Assembly: GCA_021817785.1 (NCBI GenBank)
Contig: JAKAFY010000016.1
Span: 1 to 33,688 of the forward strand
Origin: a bacterium
Lineage (GTDB): Bacteria > Patescibacteriota > Microgenomatia > UBA10105 > UBA927
Length of the DNA stretch: 33,688 bases
Reading direction: 5' to 3'
Under the pieces are notes generated by a model. It had not been told where the DNA came from and did not search any database. It worked only from the letters and a program-made list of their open reading frames with translations. This document shows, in pieces, positions 5,901 through 11,447 of the stretch (position 1 is its first letter; the number at the start of each line of letters is the position of its first letter). Position numbers and translations under genes: made by a program.

Positions 5901-8900
5901 CTATTCTGACATGTTTTGACTTGAGAACCCTTTCGTGTTCGCAGTTTCTAATAATTTTTTTCCATAAGCTTTCTGCTTTTCTGTTAATGTACCCGTACGT
6001 GAGACATACTTACCAAGTGAATAGCAAAATCTATTTTGAAATGAACTGAAATTACCAGTAGTTTTTCCCCAATGAGATAATTTAAACCATGTGTCTTTAT
6101 CCAACAGCATTTTTCCAACTTGGTCTTCAAATAACGACGCCTGCTTTGTATCTGTATTAATTTTACTTTTTGTGGCTTTTATTTCACTTTTATCTATTTT
6201 TGGCTTCGACTCAATCAATCTTAATACTTGTTCCATCTCTTCTTCATTCTCTTGTGTAGTAGCAAGTCCTATAGCAGATTCTTTCTGCTCAATATTTATC
6301 TGATTTAATTTACGTTCCATTTGTGTTGGCTGCATTTTTAAAAGTTGAACTATTTGATCTATTGTTCCTTCTGGGTTTAAATAAAATTGGCTAGCAGTGA
6401 TGCGTTGGACATCCCATTGTGTTACTCTTTCTATAGTTGCTTGTCTCATATAATGCTCTGGCGGCAAATCACCCGTTTCATCGAGTTTAAAATCCCCATC
6501 ACATTCAATTGCCAATGTCCTGCCATCTTTATCAAGAATAACTTGATCAATTCGATATCCCGCACAAGGAAATTGAGTAATTACGTTAACACCTTTTCCA
6601 CGAAATAATCTACATACGTCTTCTTCAAATTGGCTATCAAATTGATCTTCTTTTGGAGAAAATGGGTCAATATAATTTTCTTGAACATATTCGGCATGCT
6701 GCATAAAAGATTTAATATATTTTCCTGGAAACATAGAAGGTTTCTGAGAAGTATATATAATGACTTTTCTTCTAGCCCGAGTAAAAGCAACATTCATACG
6801 TTTAAAACCTTCTTCGTTCACTCCTGTTTCAATAGCGGTAATGCTTCCAGGTTTGCCATTAGGCGAAAAGCGCATTGAATATATAATTACGTCTCTTTCA
6901 TCCCCTTGAAATCCATCAACAGTCCTTGACTGTATGGCAAATTTTCTAATTGTTTCGGGATCCAGTTCTTTATATATCATTTCGCTTATCAAATCAGCCT
7001 GTGCTCTAAATGGTGAAATAATGCCGATTGTTAGATCATCATAGGTTTTATCGGTTACTAAATTTTTTAACTCTTCAACTATTACTTCAGCTTCTACAGG
7101 GTTTACCTTTGCTTCAACATCCTCCGCCCCATTGGGCAGGTATCGAACTTCCATAGGTGGAGCAAATCGGGTTTCCCAAACCGGAGTCAATATTTTCATC
7201 ATGCGATTATAGACATGTTCGTTTGACCATTGGATGATAGTGGGATCACATCGGAAATGCTCAATTAGAGGTAGTAGTGGAGTTGCTGCCTGCGCAAAGG
7301 TTAAAAGTGAATACTCTTTACAGTCAAAAAATTGGGATTTATCATGACTATTTATTTTATATTTCCTTTGTAAGGAATCCATTATTCCTTTTTGAAGGAA
7401 TCTCAAATTTGCATTCGGGAGTTGTTTTTCGTCGCCTACTATGATGGCGTTTTTTGCACGATAAAATAAATGAGGAATTGCGGTTTGACTACACTGAGAA
7501 GCCTCGTCCACAATAACGTAGTCAAATAGACCTTTAACCAAAGGAAAGTATCTAGCGACATCGTCTATTGTGACCAACCAACATGGGAAATAGTTAAGTA
7601 CTTGAGAAAAATCTACTGAATTTTTCTTTTTTAAAAAATTAAGAGTTTTTTTCTTTTTTCCCAGCAAAGTTTTTAGCTTCACTAGATTGCTATTAGCTAA
7701 TTTATTGTGACTTGCCTCATGAAGCATTCTTAATCTCACATTTAATATATATGCATAAATTAGTTGTTTATTTTTCGCGACTAATTGTTTTAGCCGCTCA
7801 GCTACAATTTGGGTTGTTTCTTGTACAACGTATGAACCATACAATCGAACAAGTCGGTGACACTCAATAATAATTTCCGGCTTTTCAAATATAGTAGGCA
7901 ATACATATTTATTTTCTTCAAGAAGTTTCGTAATATTTTTTCTTGAAATCGGTAGACTGCTTAAAGCATGGAATATGTTAACGTATTCAGTTAAATTACT
8001 AATTAACACATCTAACATTTCAAATTCAGAAGTTAATTTTGTTATTTGAGTTGAACCTAATAAGTCCGGAGAAACCTCACAAAGTTTATGAGAGGGTGTG
8101 AGGCTTTTTAAAACCTTAAAATTGGCATTCAATGTATTAACCTCACCAGTACATATTCTAGTATTTTCTAGACTATCAATATTAATATATTTAGCGATTA
8201 TATGAGGAGTATTCTTGAATGAAGATATTACGTTAGAATTTTTAAGTAAATTTCCGATATCAACTAAGCTTTTTAGTTCCAAAATAAATTCTGGTAAATG
8301 TTCAACTCTTAATTTGTTCATTGATATCTCGAATGGTAAAGATTTAACCTCCTCGATAATATTTACAAGGGTCTTTTTAGCTTTTTTTAGGCGAATAACT
8401 TTGTCTAATTGATCACATATTAAAGATTTACTTCTCCAATCATTACCGGATAATTGTAAGATTTTAGACACTCGATGAAGAGATTCTCTTGCTTTAGAGT
8501 CAAAAAGGTTTGTAAAAAGATTTGGCTTGGTATTTTTAAGTATCTCCAAATCTTCTATTAGCTGGTTTATCTCTATAGAGTCTAAGTCTATATCGACAGC
8601 TAAATCATAAGCTTGAACGTCCATATCTAATAGCTCTAACTTTGTTAGAATTTTTGATGCCAACTCATATGACTCTCTTGGAATTTGAGATAGATGCTGT
8701 ATATATTTTTCAAATTTTTTTCCGCTTAAAGAGAGCTCATAAGCAATCTTCTGAATGCTCACCCAAATCCCCAAGAGGCTATTTGAAATCTCATATGCTT
8801 CGGACGGAGAATATGTTGACAGAAGTTCTTTAATAAAGGATATTTCAGTTTTCGAAGACAATGCTAAGGAATTTTGTAGGCGCTGTAAAATTGATAAAAT

Positions 8901-10517
8901 AGCACGAATTGACTCTTGTATTTGAGACAACTTGTGTAAATCGGTTCCATATTTATCAATATATTTTGGTCTATTTTCTTTGAATACAGAAAGCAAGTAA
9001 GCAAAACGTTTGATTTGTTTAGCATTCCTACTTGGGTCCTCTACGGAGAAAGATTCAGTTGAGTCTAAAATTGAATACTCTCTATATTCTTCCAATTTTA
9101 ATGGGGAATCAGCTTTTGAGAGATATCTTTGTTTTTCAAGAAGCTTCAACTCTGTAAATCGCTTCATCAGTTCTAATTGATTACGTTTATTCTCTTTTAG
9201 AGAAGCCGAAATATCATTTAATTTTGATTGAATTTCAAATGAGCTAAGCCCAAGTGTATATACGCCTAATGCGTCAAGTTTTTGTTTTATATCTGCCGCA
9301 ACGGCTTCTTCTTTTTCACCTTTAATTAAGGCTAATTCAAGGGGTATAGTCAAATTTGGATGCCTTGGAGTTGTTAACGATACATTTTTTCTCAATTTTT
9401 CCCTTACTACCTCTAATGCTTTTTCTTGCTGACTTGTGACCAAAACAGATTTACCATTGGCAATTAAATGACATACCAAGTTGGAGATCGTTTCCGATTT
9501 TCCTGTCCCTGGGGGACCCCAAACGACTGTTAGTCGCTTAGACATTACATTGTCACATATTCTTTGTTGATGGATGTTAGATTTTAATGGGAAAAAATAT
9601 ATATCTTGTTTTGGATTGGTTGATTCTCCCAGAGAATCTCCTTCGGATTCTTTAAAATCTACAGTTAATAGATCTTCGATTGGTGTACCGCTTATATCTG
9701 CATCCGCTTCTGTTAACTCATCAAGATCGTCTAAAATAAAAGATGATGTGCGCGGTGTATTTATTAATACACATGTATTGGCAATAAGATCCTTTGATTC
9801 TGACGCAGCAATATCGTTCAAAGACGTAATTTCCTCTTTAATGTCTATATTTTTAAGAGCGGGAGCATGGTTACTCAGTAGGGTCACGATCTTTTTTAAT
9901 ATACTTAAATCAATATCCTCTGTTTCGAGGTATAGTTCATTAATTTCATTTCGAACTGGAGCTAAGTTATCATCCGACAATAACGTGGCGATTAAACTCC
10001 TATTTAAATCCGGTTTTGTTGAAAGTTTGGTAAGGTCAAATGAAGCAGTCTCAGGATCATAAGTAATTTTAATTTGTGTTAGTAGCAAAGGTGCTAATAG
10101 ATTTTTTTTGTTTGCCATAGTTTTAACTAAGTATTCTCCGATCATGGTTTCTCGTTCGTATGGATTATTTTCTTGAGTTCTCCATATCTTATTTACTGCA
10201 GACCAAGCGATCTCTTCATCGGTAATTTCTGGCTCTTCTAAGCCTTCTTCGTCATTTTCAGTATGAGACAAGTCTTCCTCATCAAATTTTTCAATCTTAA
10301 TTTGTTTTTTGGGTTTACTAATTTTTATCGTTTGTTTTTTTAGATTTTCAGAGTCAGAAATTAATAAAACGAGGTCAGCGACGAGTCCAAATCTTTGCCC
10401 ATTTGCTACATTTTGTAGTACTCTAGAGGCCGAAGAAGCGACATATTTAAGCACTTCCCTATAGTATTTTGAGAGTGGACGAAGAATTCCAGCCAGCGCA
10501 CCATTTTCGATTTCCAT
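5901..10517 (-). CDS. Giant SF1 helicase (COG1112-like) with C-terminal PD-(D/E)XK / MTES_1575-like endonuclease domain; candidate defence gene
   Basis: Walker A VVWGPPGTGKSETISNL, DEAS box YVIVDEASQCSQTAIPH, IIVGDEKQLPN, VDGFQGDERDVIIYSMR, NVAFTRARRKVIIYTS; C-terminal FEEDVCRLFRGKGVNVITQFPCAGYRIDQVILDKDGRTLAIECDGD nuclease signature. Confidence 0.88.
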   Translation of the reverse strand: MEIENGALAGILRPLSKYYREVLKYVASSASRVLQNVANGQRFGLVADLVLLISDSENLKKQTIKISKPKKQIKIEKFDEEDLSHTENDEEGLEEPEITDEEIAWSAVNKIWRTQENNPYERETMIGEYLVKTMANKKNLLAPLLLTQIKITYDPETASFDLTKLSTKPDLNRSLIATLLSDDNLAPVRNEINELYLETEDIDLSILKKIVTLLSNHAPALKNIDIKEEITSLNDIAASESKDLIANTCVLINTPRTSSFILDDLDELTEADADISGTPIEDLLTVDFKESEGDSLGESTNPKQDIYFFPLKSNIHQQRICDNVMSKRLTVVWGPPGTGKSETISNLVCHLIANGKSVLVTSQQEKALEVVREKLRKNVSLTTPRHPNLTIPLELALIKGEKEEAVAADIKQKLDALGVYTLGLSSFEIQSKLNDISASLKENKRNQLELMKRFTELKLLEKQRYLSKADSPLKLEEYREYSILDSTESFSVEDPSRNAKQIKRFAYLLSVFKENRPKYIDKYGTDLHKLSQIQESIRAILSILQRLQNSLALSSKTEISFIKELLSTYSPSEAYEISNSLLGIWVSIQKIAYELSLSGKKFEKYIQHLSQIPRESYELASKILTKLELLDMDVQAYDLAVDIDLDSIEINQLIEDLEILKNTKPNLFTNLFDSKARESLHRVSKILQLSGNDWRSKSLICDQLDKVIRLKKAKKTLVNIIEEVKSLPFEISMNKLRVEHLPEFILELKSLVDIGNLLKNSNVISSFKNTPHIIAKYINIDSLENTRICTGEVNTLNANFKVLKSLTPSHKLCEVSPDLLGSTQITKLTSEFEMLDVLISNLTEYVNIFHALSSLPISRKNITKLLEENKYVLPTIFEKPEIIIECHRLVRLYGSYVVQETTQIVAERLKQLVAKNKQLIYAYILNVRLRMLHEASHNKLANSNLVKLKTLLGKKKKTLNFLKKKNSVDFSQVLNYFPCWLVTIDDVARYFPLVKGLFDYVIVDEASQCSQTAIPHLFYRAKNAIIVGDEKQLPNANLRFLQKGIMDSLQRKYKINSHDKSQFFDCKEYSLLTFAQAATPLLPLIEHFRCDPTIIQWSNEHVYNRMMKILTPVWETRFAPPMEVRYLPNGAEDVEAKVNPVEAEVIVEELKNLVTDKTYDDLTIGIISPFRAQADLISEMIYKELDPETIRKFAIQSRTVDGFQGDERDVIIYSMRFSPNGKPGSITAIETGVNEEGFKRMNVAFTRARRKVIIYTSQKPSMFPGKYIKSFMQHAEYVQENYIDPFSPKEDQFDSQFEEDVCRLFRGKGVNVITQFPCAGYRIDQVILDKDGRTLAIECDGDFKLDETGDLPPEHYMRQATIERVTQWDVQRITASQFYLNPEGTIDQIVQLLKMQPTQMERKLNQINIEQKESAIGLATTQENEEEMEQVLRLIESKPKIDKSEIKATKSKINTDTKQASLFEDQVGKMLLDKDTWFKLSHWGKTTGNFSSFQNRFCYSLGKYVSRTGTLTEKQKAYGKKLLETANTKGFSSQNMSE

Positions 10518-10727: not shown

Positions 10728-10862
10728 ATAAACGGACAAAAAGCCAGCTGAGTCACAATTCTAGTAATCTGCTGTCCAAAGTCTGTTATTGTTGATGGTG
10801 TGATAAAGGTTGCCAATTTGGTTTATAAGTACATGAGACTTGGATGATGGTCGCTTTGTTCA

Positions 10863-10933
10863 GCCCTCCCCATCTTCCTTCTCGCCTTTTCAGTACTATT
10901 CGTACACGGCTCGAAGGGCGATATTGGGAGGGC
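10863..10933 (-). other. Candidate structured RNA element: hairpin A downstream of tRNA-Gln
   Basis: Perfect 8-bp arms GCCCTCCC (10863-10870) / GGGAGGGC (10926-10933) with inner TCGCC/GGCGA pairing. Confidence 0.45.
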
Positions 10934-10985
10934 ATTGTCAATTTCTAAGCTCTCCGCATAAGCGGATCGCTAAGAAATGTCAATG
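10933..10985 (-). other. Candidate structured RNA element: hairpin B abutting the tRNA-Gln 3' end
   Basis: Long imperfect inverted repeat CATTGTCAATTTCTAAGC...GCTAAGAAATGTCAATG closed around CCGC-ATAA-GCGG. Confidence 0.5.
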
Positions 10986-11056
10986 CTGGGAGACTTGGAT
11001 TCGGACCAAGATAAACGGATTCAGAGTCCGTTGTCCTACCGTTAGACGATCTCCCA
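10986..11056 (-). tRNA. tRNA-Gln (anticodon CUG)
   Basis: Minus strand TGGGAGA.TC.GTCT.AACGGTA.GGAC.A.ACGGA.CTCTGAA.TCCGT.TTAT.CTTGG.TCCGAAT.CCAAG.TCTCCCA.G; full cloverleaf, 7-bp acceptor, anticodon CTG, G discriminator; no encoded CCA. Confidence 0.93.
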
Positions 11057-11287
11057 AATATTTTTTAAAAATCTCCTGCCGGATCTGCTTTTAAAATATA
11101 CTTCCCGCTTCCGTGCCTCACCTACAGTTTTATACGTTTCTTTATATATCAACAGCCAAGGTGCGTATCTTTTGGTGTAGCTGTGCTTTCCGGAATTATG
11201 TTCTCTTATTCTTCTTTCTAGATCATGCGTAAATCCAACGTAACTTTTTTCCGCCACCGTGCTTTTTAGAACGTAGGTATAGAACAT
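11042..11287 (-). CDS. GIY-YIG endonuclease-domain protein (81 aa)
   Basis: MFYTYVLKSTVAEKSYVGFTHDLERRIREHNSGK, GIY-YIG signature (YTYVL..SYVGFT). Its stop codon lies inside the tRNA-Gln gene. ORF track extends upstream to 11446. Confidence 0.85.
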   Translation of the reverse strand: MFYTYVLKSTVAEKSYVGFTHDLERRIREHNSGKHSYTKRYAPWLLIYKETYKTVGEARKREVYFKSRSGRRFLKNIWEIV

Positions 11288-11288
11288 A

Positions 11289-11357
11289 CGTTGTCCTATC
11301 CGCCTCGGCTTGACGAGGTCAGCCGAGTCGAGACGGGCCGTTAGACGATCTCCCAAA
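11289..11357 (-). pseudogene. Truncated tRNA-Gln 5' copy carrying a 39-nt D-loop insertion
   Basis: Identical to the intact tRNA 5' part: TTTGGGAGATCGTCTAACGG (11357-11338) and TAGGACAACG (11298-11289), separated by a 39-nt insert 11299-11337 with CTCGGCT...AGCCGAG hairpin arms; no 3' half. Confidence 0.85.
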
Positions 11358-11447
11358 AGTGTACTGATTATACCGCAATACTCCGGATAATTCCTCACCG
11401 AACTGCTCTTTACTAAAACCACCCCCTCCACTATAGTGATCCTCACT

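Follow-up and report, generated by a model that had tools for sequence, protein, structure and literature searches.

How does a gene for a tiny nuclease come to lie between a broken and an intact copy of the same tRNA gene? The question is raised by a minus-strand locus in the genome of a member of the Patescibacteriota (GCA_021817785.1, Microgenomatia), studied here within a stretch of 33,688 nucleotides of contig JAKAFY010000016.1 that we call the window. The original prediction was of a compact, tRNA-targeting mobile GIY-YIG gene that spares a working tRNA. This idea is supported by recurrence of the arrangement at 16 tRNA isotypes, far more often than expected by chance; movement and cleavage are inferred. 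On balance we think it likely that the gene is a minimal mobile gene invading the genes of tRNAs and other structured RNAs, although cleavage, homing and transposition have not been observed. What comparison of sequences establishes is the placement, the duplication, the palindrome, the target-biased lineages and the pattern of presence and absence. The arrangement that emerges is a predicted nuclease gene of ~80-90 aa between a partial tRNA copy, usually interrupted by a palindrome, and an intact copy.

Structure of the tRNA-Gln locus

On the minus strand a TATAAT box is followed by a partial tRNA-Gln copy, a single T, the ATG of the ORF and the intact tRNA-Gln(CTG) (Table 1). The position of the GIY-YIG ORF between the broken 5' copy and the intact gene was confirmed with ARAGORN, Rfam and PF01541. 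The first ~28 nt of the tRNA are present as predicted, with the ATG 1 nt beyond the end of TAGGACAACG. However, the copy is not continuous, as it is split by the 39-nt hairpin between tRNA positions 18 and 19. TGGGAGATCGTCTAACGG occurs exactly twice in the window, at 11355-11338 and 11056-11039, where the chance expectation is 0.02 even at 3 mismatches. The 3' end of the ORF reads ..ATT TGG GAG ATC GTC TAA (IWEIV*). Its final 15 nt are tRNA-Gln nt 1-15, which encode the final four sense codons and the stop; this part of the prediction could be read directly from the sequence. Insertion around position 29 had also been proposed. That position proves to be only the end of the duplication in this copy, and the end differs among elements.

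Table 1. Features of the tRNA-Gln locus and its neighbourhood, in window coordinates.
Feature	Position	Strand	Basis or remark
-10 box, TATAAT-like, of the tRNA-Gln promoter	11367..11372	-	sequence; now upstream of the broken copy
5' partial tRNA-Gln copy, tRNA positions 1-18, TGGGAGATCGTCTAACGG	11338..11355	-	exact repeat of the tRNA 5' end
GC-rich hairpin (palindrome) insert, 39 nt, CCCGTCTCGACTCGGCTGACCTCGTCAAGCCGAGGCGGA	11299..11337	-	sequence; two-part match
5' partial tRNA-Gln copy, tRNA positions 19-28, TAGGACAACG	11289..11298	-	sequence; two-part match
Stand-alone GIY-YIG nuclease gene, 81 aa	11042..11287	-	PF01541, E=2.5e-15
Intact tRNA-Gln(CTG)	10985..11056	-	ARAGORN call; Rfam 61 bits
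Conserved double stem-loop, ~130 nt, core GCCGUGUACGAAUAGUACUGAAAAGGC	10856-10985	-	directly 3' of tRNA-Gln
1538-aa helicase with C-terminal MTES_1575 nuclease domain	5901-10517	-	adjoins the tRNA locus
Second GIY-YIG ORF, 88 aa	15219-15482	+	between a DUF2127 gene and a NicO gene, no tRNA near

The search for empty sites proposed with the original prediction found them in congeners. The tRNA-Gln(CTG) gene is unbroken in five of these (L103, L106-L109), with the TATAAT box at similar spacing. In the window the box lies ~11 nt ahead of the partial copy, at the point where the tRNA itself starts in congeners; the spacing from box to tRNA start is alike in the empty congeners L103, L107 and L108. 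The comparison thus places the putative mobile gene downstream of the tRNA's promoter. The window's tRNA-Gln(CTG) is the sole CTG tRNA detected in the survey of its genome (G000), which ran on stretches and not on the whole genome, and nearly every anticodon in the surveyed genome is served by one gene. An assembly error of one MAG is ruled out as the source of the arrangement, since dozens of independent genomes show the form, among them that of a cultured isolate and the single-contig genome G016.

Homologues beside tRNA genes

Homologues were gathered by protein similarity alone from the window's own genome and those of 58 relatives, 59 in all. At least one is present in 55 of these, with up to 12 per genome. 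In 51 of 109 loci (47%) an intact tRNA on the same strand begins -22 to +49 nt from the ORF stop, and these 51 loci, whose ORF ends at the tRNA 5' end, cover 16 isotypes. The chance that an ORF stop meets this criterion is ~0.2% (by arithmetic from 44 tRNAs in 1.28 Mb), or ~0.2 of 109 expected. Another 23 loci have an intact tRNA shortly upstream of the ORF. The remaining 35 homologues have no nearby tRNA, and some of them lie within rRNA or adjoin tmRNA. Of the 51 ORFs that end at a tRNA, 33 have their stop codon within it, and 17 of these are served by a TAG at tRNA positions 8-10.

This family of tiny nuclease genes is widespread, mainly in the ultra-small Patescibacteria and in Bacteroidota. 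Comparative evidence demonstrates the predicted genes in several phyla, together with tandem arrays, decay and absence at the same site in relatives.

Broken tRNA copies and palindromes

The duplication was analysed in 84 'DN'-type elements, which comprise loci from related genomes and loci from a scan of public genomes. The 5' end of the element's own tRNA is found upstream of the ORF in 71 of them, whereas the tRNAs of other isotypes match in 56 of 420 comparisons (13%). That tandem tRNA arrays simply decayed, with GIY-YIG genes present by chance, was one of the cases that would have refuted the original prediction, and partial tRNA copies without an ORF do exist in the same genome. Both this explanation and chance placement are ruled out by the counts of adjacency (47% of homologues abut a tRNA against ~0.2% expected) and of own-isotype copies, and the tRNA-Gln site of the congeners is uninterrupted; we can give array decay almost no credence.

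In 67 DN elements an insert divides the copy into two parts. No tRNA base is skipped in approximately 37 of the 67 (the join is exact or overlaps by 1-4 nt), so in these the insert is a pure insertion. Most of the inserts are palindromes. Strong inverted repeats occur in 30/80 DN regions and in 23/35 upstream-tRNA regions, compared with 2/185 shuffles and 6/178 control windows. The clearest case is tRNA-Arg of Bacteroidota and Chlorobiota, in which the broken copy reads GGATA-CCTGCCTGCCGGCAGGCAGG-GTGCAC and the intact one GGATAGTGCAC. The 20-mer CCTGCCTGCCGGCAGGCAGG is also present in Leu and Asn elements of Patescibacteria. Some genomes carry this CCTGCC palindrome as a dispersed repeat; in G064 (Lentimicrobiaceae, 2.5 Mb) it is present once, at the GIY-YIG/tRNA-Arg locus only. 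Double hairpins are also found among these elements.

A role of the palindrome in insulating the 3' half of the intact tRNA from the broken 5' copy found no support, as its removal made no significant difference to folding with Turner 2004 and Turner 1999 parameters (p=0.39, 0.07). Capture of the tRNA 3' half by the upstream copy was also predicted with a shuffled ORF and is thus not a property of these sequences.

Other arrangements and ORF-less footprints

The duplicated part is not always the 5' end. That prediction holds for the window; mirror elements instead duplicate the 3' end, in the order [intact tRNA][ORF][palindrome-broken 3' copy] (e.g. L052, L188, L195 and L205). Simple regeneration of the tRNA, as first envisaged, does not describe every locus either. 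At some loci the acceptor stem of the intact tRNA is unlike the broken halves, and those halves pair with each other; such loci have a complete foreign tRNA within an older tRNA that was split. In L069 an old tRNA-Val (GGATCGT..ACGATCC) is split around the ORF and a tRNA-Val with GGTCGGT..ACCGACC, with one hairpin in both halves, and L114 has a foreign tRNA-Gln within a split tRNA-Gln, without an ORF. Tandem arrays are present at L014, L087, L088 and L189. Family members that match a profile derived from the window protein together with its relatives are found between inverted repeats in 16S (L097) and 23S (L066) rRNA, and others adjoin tmRNA.

ORF-less footprints are present in the window's own genome at the tRNAs for at least Thr(tgt), Thr(cgt), Pro(ggg), Lys and Leu(tag). 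The existence of such duplications means that the ORF may be unnecessary for the duplication, or not its cause. At L151 (G000 C21:75100-76600) the 5' partial copy of tRNA-Thr(cgt) and its promoter stretch are apparently repeated in tandem, without an ORF, before the intact gene. A separate group of GIY-YIG ORFs without a tRNA (L007, L013, L024, L056 and L200) is flanked by inverted repeats, e.g. CCGGGTAGTGAAACTTC..GAAGTTTCACTACCCGG, which places the gene in the loop of a stem.

Empty, decayed and amplified sites

In many relatives among the Flavobacteriaceae, a YqeY-like gene and tRNA-Arg(tcg) are separated by a short, empty interval. The same interval in G070 has a broken copy, a hairpin and no more of the ORF than its tail, and G077 is also a decayed site. 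Luteirhabdus pelagi has repeated units of 313 bp in this interval, and their left junction is the one seen in G070. Two copies are identical at 307/309 aligned bases; the copy number is uncertain because of an assembly gap within the locus. These empty, decayed and amplified states fit a cycle of gain, amplification and decay.

The absence and decay in relatives bear on a reading in which the gene has a cellular function and is not mobile. It would then be a tRNA-linked regulatory or toxin-like gene for a GIY-YIG protein that cleaves tRNA or DNA, and the broken copy would control or neutralise this protein as an operator or as an RNA decoy. The broken copy does abut the ATG, and I-TevI has a known operator that it binds and that resembles its own homing site (PMC2988022). 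However, target switching spans at least 16 isotypes, with rRNA and tmRNA sites as well, and the mirror order leaves the broken copy behind the gene. With relatives that have lost or never held the gene, this makes a regulatory role very improbable.

The protein and its lineages

The GIY-YIG domain spans residues 1-71 of 81 and forms one compact domain in the AF2 model (pLDDT 93), which meets the criterion for the GIY-YIG fold. Y5, Y16, G18, R26, H30 and E62 are invariant in 36 homologues, so the catalytic residues of the GIY-YIG superfamily are in place and the homologues appear to be maintained as enzymes. A PDB structure search with the AF2 model gave no match below E=0.001; the closest structures are UPF0213 and Slx1, followed by the I-TevI catalytic domain, with TM up to 0.72 (by query). 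Target specificity remains unexplained because the protein has no separate DNA-binding domain. A phage origin was considered and rejected, as phage matches are weak only (at most 41% identity).

Among Patescibacteria of other genera, the best relatives of the window protein (L173, L174, L177, L178 and L182) have 53-59% identity to it and are all at tRNA-Gln. Nearest protein neighbours share the isotype in 34/73 cases, compared with 4.6 after shuffling. The tree requires 42 isotype changes versus 59.5 with shuffled labels, although many of its forks are unresolved. Together these counts indicate lineages that are target-biased yet switch target. The palindrome type of the window's insert recurs in the related elements L002, L004, L005, L173, L174, L178 and L182, and CCCGCCTCG..CGAGGCGGG is common to the Gln lineage and its Thr and Leu relatives L004 and L005. 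Sharing of palindromes grows with protein identity, across isotypes too; palindrome type follows the protein lineage.

This last result weighs on whether the palindromes are themselves the mobile entities, like REPs or mitochondrial GC clusters. They would arrive with a partial tRNA duplication, and the GIY-YIG gene would be either the mobilising enzyme of an autonomous copy or a passenger in the spacer. Palindrome-broken partial copies without an ORF are known from G000 (Thr, Pro, Lys and Leu), G067 (tRNA-Arg(ccg)) and G069 (tRNA-Leu), the CCTGCC palindrome is dispersed in some genomes, and one hairpin is found in both flanking halves at L069, L086, L065 and L094, all of which would be expected of such an entity. 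It is harder to reconcile with the palindrome type tracking the protein across isotypes or with the single CCTGCC palindrome of G064, and G070 indicates that deletion of the ORF can yield ORF-less footprints. We consider palindromes as the element unlikely, without dismissing them, and favor the reading of a mobile gene.

Neighbouring structured elements and genes

The double stem-loop directly 3' of tRNA-Gln was unmatched in an Rfam search. It is present in 1-10 copies in 18/29 related genomes, often immediately downstream of tRNAs (Gln, Asp, Met, Ser and Arg), and its homologues include L032, L039, L055, L067, L193 and L295-L318. Copy L311 lies inside an apparent RNase P RNA. Compensatory changes are found at 13/20 predicted pairs in a 21-sequence alignment, and the double stem-loop is a candidate for a new structured RNA or mobile hairpin. 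The helicase that adjoins the tRNA locus is similar to candidate anti-phage proteins (PDC-S37, Hhe). Elsewhere, GIY-YIG genes that lie behind tRNA-Ser or tRNA-Met, or alone (L020, L022, L016, L070, L067, L074, L090 and L093), have elaborate hairpin leaders in common, e.g. CGTAAGAAATTT..AACGTTGCTGG..GCCGCC. Those leaders that were searched had no Rfam match at gathering score; they are possibly structured leader or regulatory RNAs.

Discussion

The proposed mechanism is inferred throughout. The nuclease would break tRNA-gene DNA, and the repair, whether templated by an occupied copy or guided by microhomology, would install the ORF and with it a duplicate of part of the tRNA. A single-copy tRNA would not survive an insertion that lacked the duplication. 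As one gene per anticodon is the rule in the surveyed genome, only events that leave one complete tRNA would survive, which would give rise to the 5' and 3' forms. As for the palindrome of the broken copy, it probably marks a healed cut site, blocks re-cutting, or is a cis-acting sequence moved with the gene. With UPF0213 and the branched-DNA nuclease Slx1 as the best structural matches, recognition of a cruciform or hairpin in structured-RNA genes is a reasonable idea that is untested; it would explain the rRNA and tmRNA sites.

The nearest known system is SegB of T-even phages, a GIY-YIG enzyme encoded beside tRNA genes that cuts within them (PMC13096335, PMC2988022). It drives tandem amplification of the tRNA-segB unit, through the resemblance of the tRNA's 5' end to the 3' end of segB (PMC13096335). 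The present family resembles it in the location beside tRNAs of many isotypes, the similarity of tRNA 5' end and gene 3' end, and the tandem unit with a tRNA gene. It differs in its cellular hosts (Patescibacteria and Bacteroidota), its bare ~80-aa catalytic domain, the palindrome-broken partial tRNA copy that it leaves and the stop codon often taken from the tRNA. A Seg-type gene is expected beside its presumed target with relatives that have an empty site, which is the case here, and to encode a separate DNA-binding region, which is absent from the 81-aa protein. By analogy, the gene most likely works like a free-standing homing gene, with cleavage inferred. Since a DNA-binding region is absent and cutting is untested, we do not claim that the gene belongs to the Seg family.

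GIY-YIG ORFs have also been described in non-intron insertion sequences of CPR rRNA genes (PMC11270868). That report concerns rRNA sites only, with tRNA absent from its text, and judged the GIY-YIG ORFs to be outside spread by homing. The family members in 16S and 23S rRNA satisfy the expectation of homologous ORFs at such sites; unlike those insertions, the tRNA form duplicates part of its target. A homing endonuclease of a group I or II intron, or a known ribozyme, can be set aside, as Rfam finds only tRNA in the window and tRNA-Gln is complete without splicing, contrary to what an intron ORF requires.

REP palindromes with RAYT transposases are short and occur as dispersed copies and as copies linked to one gene. 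The present palindromes are likewise short, dispersed and linked to one gene. However, that gene is a GIY-YIG nuclease and not a Y1 transposase (at the locus itself only PF01541 was identified), and there is a strong preference for tRNA genes. Integrase-type elements rebuild the end of a tRNA on insertion. They are alike in that the insert supplies the missing part and the target gene stays functional, and unlike in that the present unit is ~0.3 kb, exists in both 5' and 3' forms and has no integrase; between the tRNA copies no ORF other than the GIY-YIG gene is in frame with the unit. The palindromic GC clusters of yeast mitochondria are short, mobile-looking palindromes that merge and shuffle (PMC4478555), and double hairpins occur here too; the passages considered from that source describe no linked nuclease gene and no tRNA duplication. 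The arrangement was not found in the literature on GIY-YIG and tRNA in Patescibacteria, Parcubacteria and Bacteroidetes, a search that left out most subscription papers.

There is a fair chance that this variant of the free-standing GIY-YIG mobile gene is a distinct minimal element class. We are evenly divided over a fuller description, in which a new ~0.3 kb element, composed of one Slx1-like catalytic domain and a cis palindrome, invades the genes of tRNAs and other structured RNAs across bacterial phyla. It would keep the tRNA intact by partial duplication on either side, use the tRNA's promoter side, often draw its stop codon from the tRNA's sequence, and have ORF-less, MITE-like derivatives that reshaped many tRNA loci of Patescibacteria.

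Small GIY-YIG genes with up to a dozen copies per Patescibacteria genome are readily overlooked as generic nucleases. If the proposal is true, these are mobile genes that have essential RNA genes as safe havens, and the hairpin-broken partial copies at many tRNA loci in the reduced genomes of Patescibacteria would be explained. Partial tRNA copies and short ORFs overlapping tRNAs would then not need to be annotation errors. The link between SegB and tRNA would then reach from phages into cellular genomes, cultured Bacteroidota included, and in bacteria like Luteirhabdus pelagi the mechanism is testable.
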